In this document: positions 47,963 through 52,732 of the stretch, one piece after another | How the letters are laid out: every line of letters starts with the position of its first letter | Numbering within the stretch: position 1 is the stretch's first letter | Assembly: GCA_964019415.1 (NCBI GenBank) | Contig: OZ025870.1 | Coordinates: forward strand, 3,319,408-3,383,407 | Reading direction: 5' to 3' | DNA: 64,000 bases | DNA from: Ianthella basta | Taxonomy: Eukaryota > Porifera > Demospongiae > Verongiida > Ianthellidae | Made by a program: the position numbers and the translations under genes | Notes under the pieces: model-generated | Database searches by the model: none | Told to the model about the DNA's origin: nothing | What the model saw: the letters and a program-made list of their open reading frames with translations, nothing else

Positions 47963-48196
47963 ACACACGCATGCATGCACACGCACTCATGCACACGCAC
48001 GCAAGCACACGCACACATGCATGCACACACACACACAACACACACACACACACACACACACACACACACACACACACAGAGAGAGAGAGAGAGAGAGAGA
48101 GAGAGAGAGAGAGAGAGAGAGAGAGAGAGAGAGAGAGAGAGAGAGAGAGAGAGAGAGAGAGAGAGAGAGAGAGAGAGAGAGAGAGAGGGGAGAGAG
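47963..48196 (+). repeat. (CA)n followed by (GA)n microsatellite
   Basis: The CA-rich part runs to 48078, then about 110 bp of pure GA to about 48187, then a few interrupted GA steps. It directly abuts the inferred 5' end of the retrotransposon. Confidence 0.9.
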
Positions 48197-51100
48197 GTGT
48201 TGATTACCAGTGACCAGGCACAAAAGTACTGTTGAGGGGCTCTGCCTAAATTCACTGTCTAGGCCAAGTTCTTGGTTCAGTTTCTAGGCCAACTTGTTCA
48301 TCCTAGTACTGTCACTAGTTTTGTGAAGTTTGGTGGAGATACCCTTGCTACTTTTCGAGTTCTGTCGATTTGAACTAATTCACACCTGAGCATGGACCAG
48401 AAGGAGTGTTGTTTCTGCCAAAGGACTTTCAAAAAGGTTGGAGCCCACTATAAGAGCTGTCCAGAAAGGAAGGGACAAGCTTTCCAGCATCTCCTGACAG
48501 AGAAAACTATCAGTAGCAGGCACAAGACAAAGAAAACTGCCTGCCCTAAATGTGGCAAGTTCTTCTTAAGATTAGACACACATCTGAAGAACAGTGCTTC
48601 CTGCAAAGACCGTGTCCAGTCAGTCCCATCACATACATCACTTACTGTACCACCCTACCGATCACCAGTCACCAGTGTTGTTGTACCACCCACCCACTCT
48701 CACGAATCAAGTGCTGTTGTATCATCCACCCACTCTCACGAATCAAGTGTTTCTGTACCACCCACCCACTCTCACAAATCAAGTGTTGTTGTACCACCCA
48801 CCCACTCTCATGAATCAAGTGTTGTTGTATCACCCACCCACTCTCACAAATCAAGTGTTTCTGTACCATCCACCCACTCCCATGCATCAAGTGTTGTTGT
48901 ACCACCCACCCATTCTCACAAATCAAGTGTTGTTGTACCACCCACCCACTCTCATGAACCAAGTGTTGTACCACCCACCCACTTTCATCACCATTCTGAT
49001 GTGCCATCTAGTTTTGTACCCCACCATTCTGATGTGCCATCTAGTTTTGTACCCCACCAGTCTGATGTGTCATCTAGTTTTGTACCCCACCACTCAGATG
49101 CGTCACCACGTTTTGTACCCTCACACCCACATAAGCATACACCATGCCAAATGAGTTTTGTACAAAACAGCCATGCATGGGACTTGCACCCATCTCATGT
49201 CCACACACACACCACCAACCCATCAGAATCACACATTATGCATGCTCCACATTCACCACCACTTAACACATTTACACCTCCTCAGTCCTGCAATACACAC
49301 TCATCACCACCCCCACAACACACCTGCTCCACCACCACACCACACTTTCAGCTGTGCCATGACCTGCGGCCACCTGTCTCTGCCTCTCGGTCACCACCTA
49401 CACCTGCTGCCTGCCCACCATCGCTACCACAGCCTCCCCAACCAGCCAATCAGTCTCAGCCTCCCCAACCAGCCCATCAGTCTCAACCTCCTCTACCACC
49501 ACCACCTGTGACCACTGTGCCACGAATGAAGCTCCCGACAACTGCCGAGGGATGGTGTGAGGCTGATGAGCACATGAGACAAGCTGTTGTTCCCAGGGTG
49601 TTGCATGAGTTAGATGTCAACGTCATGAACCATGTGCTGAGTCTTGGCATCTACTCATACTTCACAACCAAGTATGGCACAGAGAAGACCAATCAACATC
49701 GGCAACACCCCAACAAGGCGCAGAAGCTACGGAATGACATGACAGAGGTGCTCACTGAGAAGAAGGCAGCTAAGAAGAGGTTGAGGCAACTTAGGAAGAC
49801 TGGCACCGACCCCGAGGCAGTGAGACATCTTGCCTGCGAATTTCATAGCCTTGTGCGGGCACACAGTCGCTTAAACAGGACTGTGAAAAAGCAGGAGAGA
49901 GTGGAGAGTCAGAAGCAACAAAGGAAGGAATGTCGTAAGGACCTGCACAAGTTTGCCAAGAAGATCCTGAATGATGACAACTACACATCGATCGAGCCAA
50001 CATTCACTGCTTCTGAGGCAGAGGCTTACTTCGACCAGGTCTACTCCACCACCCCAGCCACTTTCACCCGTCCATCGTGGATGCCCGAGTCACCCTCTCC
50101 ATCAGTCCAGCTGGATATCAGTGCATTCAGCGAAGAGGAAGTGTTGCAGATCATTGCCAGATTGAACGCCTCCTCATGCCCCAGCCCCACAGACCAGATT
50201 CCATATCTAGTCCTGAAGAAGTGTCCATCACTACTTTCTGCACTGCTGCACATCTTCAACACTTGCTGGTCTGTGAAGGAAGTCCCATTAGCGTGGAAAG
50301 TCGGAGTCCTTCGGTTACTGGGGAAGAAGAAGGCTGAAGAGGACCCCAGTAATCCCAAGAACTTTCGCCCCATCGCCTTGACCAGCTGCATTGGCAAAGT
50401 GTTCACCAGCCTACTTAAGGACCGCTGGATGGCTTACATGAGATCCAACAGCTACCTAAACACCTCCGTGCAGAAGGCCTTTATCGATGGGGTACCAGGA
50501 TGCACAGAGCACCACCTAAAGCTTCTTTCAATGTTGAAGGAGGCGAAAAGGAAGCACAGATCCCTGTGTGTGTGCTGGCTGGATTTGGCAAACGCGTTCG
50601 GCAGTGTACACCACAGCTTGATCAGGTACTCCTTCGAACACTACCATGCTCCACCAGAGATGGTGGACATGATCACCAGCCTGTACAGAGACCTCGTAGG
50701 AGTCATCACCACCAAGACTTGGCAATCAGCCCCCATCCACCTCCAGCTCGGTGTCTTTCAGGGCGACCCACTGTCAGTGCTGGTGTTCAACACAGTGATG
50801 AACACCATGGTGGACACCATCACCAAGGAGCACTCAGCACTGGGGTACAGGTCGGATGCATCCCGGAGTCGCACCAACTTGTTGCAGTACGCGGATGACA
50901 CCTCATTGCTGGCTGACGGGCCGTCTTCCTGTCAGACGCTCCTCACTGTCATCGAGGCCTGGCTGAGCTGGTCAGGAATGAAGGCCAACGTGCCTAAGTG
51001 TGTGTGCCTGGCCATCCAGGCCTCCACTGCCAAGCCCTACGACCCCAAGCTGATGCTGGATGGACAGCAGATCCCCTTCATTGGAGACACCACGTTTCAC

Positions 51101-52702: not shown

Positions 52703-52732
52703 GAGAGAGAGAGAGAGAGAGAGAGAGAGAGA
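52703..52732 (+). repeat. (GA)n at the 3' end of the retrotransposon
   Basis: About 30 bp of GA directly follow the T-rich 3' tail. Confidence 0.9.

Follow-up and report, generated by a model that had tools for sequence, protein, structure and literature searches.

The window analyzed in this work is a stretch of 64,000 nucleotides (C3:3319408-3383407 in the 209-Mb genome) and carries one copy of a retrotransposon inserted in the microsatellite of a dispersed host repeat. Five related families, here called A to E, occur in this one genome with two clean specificities one letter apart, GA and GT, and the window copy belongs to family A. The features assigned to the locus are listed below, with positions numbered along the window.

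47660-47960, + strand: 5' half of the dispersed host repeat that is the target, with a CA or CA/GA microsatellite (42 matches scored out of 1,009 first-look candidates)
47964-48077, + strand: (CA)n-rich part of the target microsatellite (TRF); the order (AC)n(AG)n is also found at locus L162
48078-48187, + strand: target tract on the 5' side, an uninterrupted (AG)55 (TRF; junctions)
48188-48391, + strand: 5' leader, with the start GGGAGAGAGGTG common to the window copy, L010 and L011
48392-52378, + strand: single uninterrupted frame of 1,328 aa, with the same frame length in L011 and L012
48407-48460, + strand: N-terminal zinc-finger-like motif 1, residues 6-23, read by eye and aligned across the five families
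48542-48604, + strand: N-terminal zinc-finger-like motif 2, residues 51-71, aligned across the five families
48674-49120, + strand: in-frame tandem repeats of the N-terminal linker, 36-bp (8.8 copies) and 33-bp (4.0 copies) (TRF)
50333-51112, + strand: reverse transcriptase (RT) domain, residues 648-907 (Pfam RVT_1, 2e-26)
50888-50899, + strand: YADD motif of the RT
51236-51256, + strand: putative recombination boundary at about residue 950; the C-terminal side joins families B and D, the N-terminal side is unlike them
51848-51898, + strand: CCHC zinc-finger-like motif in the interval between RT and endonuclease, aligned with R2
52058-52117, + strand: predicted restriction-like endonuclease (RLE) core RPDIVLW...MELTVP, aligned with R2
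52379-52699, + strand: 3' UTR, with the end AATAATGATTGGTGACATTTGAAAAAA, a terminus common to families A, B and D
52703-52732, + strand: (GA)15 target tract 3' of the element (TRF)
52735-53020, + strand: 3' half of the host target repeat, CTACACAGAAACACGC..., also present in empty copies (41 matches scored out of 204 first-look candidates)

The original prediction, made from the letters of the window, described GA repeats at both ends of a complete 1328-aa element, and this description was confirmed by TRF tracts at 48078-48196 and 52703-52732 on the two sides of the frame at 48392-52378. The first array comprises 60 copies with 97% matches, its pure (AG)55 part stopping at 48187. The element does lie at the proposed position 48079-52732; these limits, however, include the target tract, and the element proper spans about 48188-52702. 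Copy L012 begins at GTGTTGATTACC, unlike the start shared by the window copy, L010 and L011. About 110-150 nt of the 5' leader (48222-48356) match a repeated unit of C1 at 71-83%. This unit is seen at L042-L049 (C1:14.65-15.01 Mb and 10.79-10.80 Mb), and nothing else in the 491-base query matches there; the leader may have been acquired from a host repeat, or the reverse. Elsewhere in the window, a 57-bp unit is repeated at 46440-47080 (11.3 copies, 93% matches), where both strands carry long open frames, and a tandem array with TRF periods of 32, 64, 72 and 132 bases occupies 17926-18330.

The best relatives of known structure were the solved R2 proteins (9nl2, 1.1e-40, residues 579-1263), the window copy being 25% identical to a 685-residue R2 segment. 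In this alignment RPDIVLW...MELTVP pairs with R2 KPDLIFV...VVDVTV, corresponding to the PD..(D/E) core of the restriction-like endonuclease. A weak zf-RVT match was returned by Pfam at residues 1121-1174 (20.9 bits, under the 27.5 cut-off). Pfam matches up to E=1 included neither an APE endonuclease before the RT nor a Ulp1-type cysteine protease, the mark sought for the NeSL clade; NeSL-1 has such a protease, and not every NeSL member does. The protein thus shows one frame with a central RT followed, by alignment with R2, by a CCHC motif and a putative PD-(D/E)xK endonuclease, and the copies share a fixed 3' end with variable 5' truncation, the footprint of target-primed reverse transcription. 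On the strength of its sequence we class the window element as an RLE-type non-LTR retrotransposon, in agreement with the type first proposed, and the R2 match includes the PD..(D/E) core. Searches of genome, viral and plasmid sequence collections found no relatives outside this genome at the sensitivity of those searches.

A search with the 3' UTR returned 21 matches, 8 of which, at 90-100%, constitute family A (the window copy and seven others), while 13 at 68-74% are B-type ends. The terminus AATAATGATTGGTGACATTTGAAAAAA was found at 56 genomic sites with up to 3 mismatches, and its reversed control at 0. Relative to the window copy, the mismatches over 2,827 nt (49550-52376) number 1 in L009, 2 in L011, 36 in L012 and 14, plus a gap, in L010; the partial copies L013, L014 and L015 are 95-99% identical to the window copy. 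The frames of L010, L013 and L015 are shorter or split, L014 is too short for a frame count and the 5' part of L009 falls in an N gap. Open frames are present in several copies for three of the five families, A, D and E. GA could be common to the copies through their duplication together with the flanks, and common flanks do exist in some pairs (D L128/L129, L079/L080, L093/L125) and for E at C3, C18 and C12. However, no mutual match at E 1e-5 was seen among the A-copy flanks (up to 500 nt per side, the N-filled 5' side of L009 excepted), which makes these copies separate insertions, and the other B/D flanks differ by eye, so that we regard duplication as a next to negligible explanation. The near identity of copies with dissimilar flanks indicates, at sequence level, that family A is young and was mobile in the recent past, which bears out the mobility first suggested.

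The junctions of all five families were then scored. A 3' junction was assigned by script to GA or GT when at least 4 units occurred within 60 nt past the conserved end, and 5' junctions were scored in the 40 nt upstream of the copy start. The junction check on other copies, set beforehand, gave (GA)n past the 3' A-run in 6/8 A copies and next to 4/7 readable 5' ends, one of these belonging to the 5'-truncated L014. The 3' junctions ran into (GA)n in 2/2 C and 14/14 E copies, and into (GT)n in 41/48 copies of B and D. Overall, the family's own repeat was borne by 63/72 3' junctions, with neither repeat at the other 9, and by 50/60 5' junctions, while the repeat of the other group was found at 0/72 and 0/60. 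In full or nearly full copies, a class that includes starts a few tens of bases in, the 5' junction carried GA in 3/4 (A), 2/2 (C) and 9/10 (E) and GT in 10/14 (B and D); the corresponding values for 5'-truncated copies were 1/3, 3/3, 5/5 and 17/19, the last group including L129, which duplicates the L128 locus, and L034, an internal deletion.

The 48 B/D 3' ends are every non-A site among the 56 pattern matches, and independent insertions are slightly fewer than 48, because L079 and L080 have a common flank, and the duplicated pair L128/L129 contributes its 3' ends as L090 and L095. Seven of these ends lack (GT)4: L065, L072, L082 and L100 are GT-rich, L089 starts GTATGT, and L068 and L069 show no likeness to GT. 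The 60 5' junctions are those of fetched copies with a placeable start, fewer than all copies. This tally omits L009 and L130 (N), L151 (rearranged), L036 (broken up), L093 (a flank duplicate of L125, which was scored as neither), and L116 and L117, assigned to another, degenerate relative whose start is preceded by neither repeat.

Within the window outside the element, the fraction of 60-nt stretches with (GA)4 was 0.0009 (both strands), and that with (GT)4 0.0131. Exact tracts of at least 11 units, counted on both strands only where the preceding base differs from the second letter of the unit, numbered 237 for GA vs 21,097 for GT in the genome. GT tracts being 89 times commoner, a mere preference for dinucleotide repeats predicts about 89 times as many landings in GT as in GA, whereas no landing of A, C or E in GT occurred among the junctions read. 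Families A, C and E target (GA)n, and B and D target (GT)n. Target-site duplications are indistinguishable within a microsatellite, and the flanks are microsatellites and not the 28S rRNA gene site that marks the R2 clade. Some points speak against insertion into (GA)n: family A counts only 8 copies, L013 is devoid of GA on both sides, L011 has GA on its 5' side only (3' flank GAAGGATGG) and L015 on its 3' side only. GA was likewise scored on the 3' side only at L010, and the 5' side of L009 is an N gap.

A 5'-truncated copy has lost its own 5' end, and the repeat at its 5' junction must therefore derive from the target. Over all families, 26/30 such copies adjoin their own family's repeat, L014 of family A included. 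These counts weigh against the possibility that the GA repeats are part of the element, namely a transcribed or slippage-made microsatellite tail combined with a GA-rich 5' end. Such an origin would account for GA after the 3' A-run in 6/8 A copies and for the leader start GGGAGAGAG; we judge it improbable, as the terminus common to A, B and D precedes GA in A and GT in B and D, and an empty copy of the host repeat, L162, already has the tract.

The host repeat was further examined for places without an insertion. Its two halves lie 42-209 bp apart, with no element between them, in 14 other places, and 266 bp apart in a fifteenth. At L162 (C16), a paralogous empty site and not an empty allele, (AC)n(AG)11 is followed by CAGCTACACAG, and at the same point the window reads (AC)n(AG)55-element-(GA)15 and then CAGCTACACAG. 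Among the 14 empty stretches, L162-L166 have a GA/AG run of 5-11 units, L168 and L170 one of 3-4, and seven have none. Four insertions were located in the GA part of this host repeat, the A copy of the window and E copies at C1, C15 and C35, the last placed by its 3' side. The 5' half of the host repeat also contains a 15-bp inverted repeat (47675-47728). Alternatively, the tract could have arisen by microsatellite birth, expanding from the A-tail or from short random seeds once the element was in place, and some tracts are indeed very long, e.g., 87 units 3' of L010, so that growth after insertion probably occurred as well. Growth alone, however, accounts neither for the tracts 5' of truncated copies nor for the empty site or the way each family keeps to GA or GT, and we consider it a very improbable origin of the repeats. 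GA is thus the target and not a tail of the element, and the (GA)n specificity put forward by the original prediction is borne out by the junctions of other copies together with the empty site.

Taken together, these data make us highly confident that a young RLE non-LTR family uses target-primed reverse transcription to enter (GA)n tracts in which GA lies on the sense strand; both the cleavage position and the mode of insertion are read from the junctions. In the mechanism we propose, the protein would bind the dinucleotide tract via its N-terminal half, from the zinc fingers to the RT palm, and the RLE would nick the bottom strand after a C that pairs with the G of GA or GT. Copying of the A-tailed 3' UTR would start at the nick, and attachment of the second strand would fall in the same tract. 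Later insertions would enter the tract left beside earlier ones and generate stacks in the same orientation, a route presumably favored by the small number of GA tracts.

Stacking of GA families in one tract, the (GT)n sister families and the mosaic structure of family A extend the results beyond what had been predicted from the window. Family E, some 3.7 kb long with 1,093 aa counted from the first Met, is found head to tail with itself, with only an A-run and (GA)n as spacer: one truncated and two full copies at C1:6.539-6.548 Mb, three copies at C12:5.342-5.354 Mb, one of them interrupted by a 1.75-kb insertion, and three copies at C35. At C20 and C6 the order is C, GA, E, and at C13 it is E, GA, C fragment. 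At each of these places (C1, C12, C35, C20, C6 and C13) the members share one orientation, as demanded by a strand-specific target. In this way a retroelement could persist on a scarce microsatellite. At L010 a full-length A copy (from 3299 on) begins immediately after an internal C fragment (C positions 920-1630, at 2588-3298), the fused pair lying between GA tracts; the simplest reading, and a likely one, is a template jump from the A to a C transcript in the course of a single insertion. A candidate stack at C3:10.828-10.836 Mb, a satellite with GA tracts about 3.8 kb apart, was discarded, the three stretches read being copies of one unrelated sequence that has GT and GA tracts.

The relationships among the families were investigated on an alignment of one protein per family, with A, D and E as single frames, B as a composite of two copies and C of two frames. 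B and D share a residue that E lacks in 221 columns, and in these A matches B/D in 38/139 before residue 950 and in 66/82 after it (best split Fisher 9e-15; maximal statistic reached by 0/5000 shuffles). When C took the place of E in this selection, the counts for A were 89/211 before and 95/117 after residue 950, and the control, E, showed no rise on the same columns, with 107/211 and 53/117. Accordingly arranged as values before/after about residue 950, identities were 0.585/0.760 for A-B, 0.573/0.755 for A-D, 0.783/0.763 for B-D and 0.619/0.578 for A-E. The 3' UTR tracks the C-terminal half, with 0.64 for A-B, 0.66 for A-D, 0.68 for B-D and 0.50 for A-E. The likelihoods of all 15 unrooted topologies were then compared. 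The best topology for residues 1-925, ((A,C),(B,D),E), is outside the five best for residues 935-1328, where it is at least 20.8 log units worse. The best one for the C-terminal half, ((B,D),(C,E),A), is not rejected on N-terminal columns (AU p 0.14) and scores much like the others over residues 560-925; as it is acceptable in both halves, the case for recombination rests on the placement of A and not on a clash of topologies. We infer that family A is a mosaic, whose C-terminal side groups with B/D and whose N-terminal side falls outside them.

This structure bears on which part of an RLE retrotransposon picks the target, the question underlying the retargeting of R2-type gene insertion. The C-terminal half of A, i.e., thumb, linker, CCHC, RLE and 3' UTR, is 76% identical to B/D, equal to the 76% between B and D. 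As A would have an endonuclease half of the B/D kind and yet targets GA, the choice between GA and GT would most likely reside in the N-terminal half. The chances seem to us about even that family A represents a natural domain exchange in which the dinucleotide is read by the N-terminal half and not by the endonuclease. Such a reader would comprise zinc fingers, linker and RT palm, a conclusion independent of the donor lineage. Twenty columns separate A, C and E from B and D, all within residues 68-897, and one of them, residue 68, is inside zinc-finger-like motif 2, with Ser in the GA families A, C and E and Asn in the GT families B and D. The lack of separating columns past residue 950 follows in part from the mosaic structure as such, and with B and D 24% different in that region, a few decisive residues may also lie in the C-terminal half. 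By separating the endonuclease half from the target, mosaic A would narrow the question to 20 candidate residues. For R2Bm, a passage of PMC10499050 describes an upstream target motif read by the N-terminal zinc finger, the Myb domain and an RT loop, and a cleavage site read by the RLE and the linker. A related family of 43% identity was also noticed (C14:84395, C9:6347335, C7:493553, C15:884039, C17:926052, C4:9380682 and C23:3813559), with open frames of at least 1,054 aa and of 1,184 aa in 5/7 loci; it might root the GA and GT specificities.

Several known retrotransposons share one or more of these traits. Kibi, Koshi, Mino, Waldo and TRAS/SART target simple repeats, microsatellite or telomere, and have an APE endonuclease before the RT. 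These APE-type inserters thus share a simple-repeat target with the window element, in which Pfam returned no APE domain. R2 is alike in its RT, CCHC and C-terminal RLE, which align with those of the window element (9nl2, 9nl3, 9dou, 8gh6), and differs in its target, the 28S rRNA genes as opposed to a dinucleotide repeat. The target of Bombyx Dong is (TAA)n. In the R4 clade, DongAg and DongBg, both of Dong, were inserted in microsatellite repeats, according to an excerpt of PMC3636483, and Dong resembles the window element, by description, in its RLE type and microsatellite insertions. In the portion consulted of a paper on target changes of R2 (PMC5035012), microsatellites are mentioned only as targets of other elements. 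Some HERO families are microsatellite-specific, as stated in part of PMC4640811, which cites a Repbase report on leech, and the HERO clade is therefore, by description, comparable to the window element in its RLE type and in having such families. No report of a (GA)n-specific RLE element was found among the open-licence papers searched, a scope outside which Repbase lies; RLE elements specific for microsatellites, with (TG)n among the targets, have already been published. The same part of PMC4640811 presents Togen as fish RLE retrotransposons specific for (TG)n microsatellites, their place with respect to HERO and NeSL being left open there. Compared by description, Togen resembles families B and D, which are of RLE type and do sit in (GT)n, and differs from families A, C and E, which use (GA)n in place of (TG)n.
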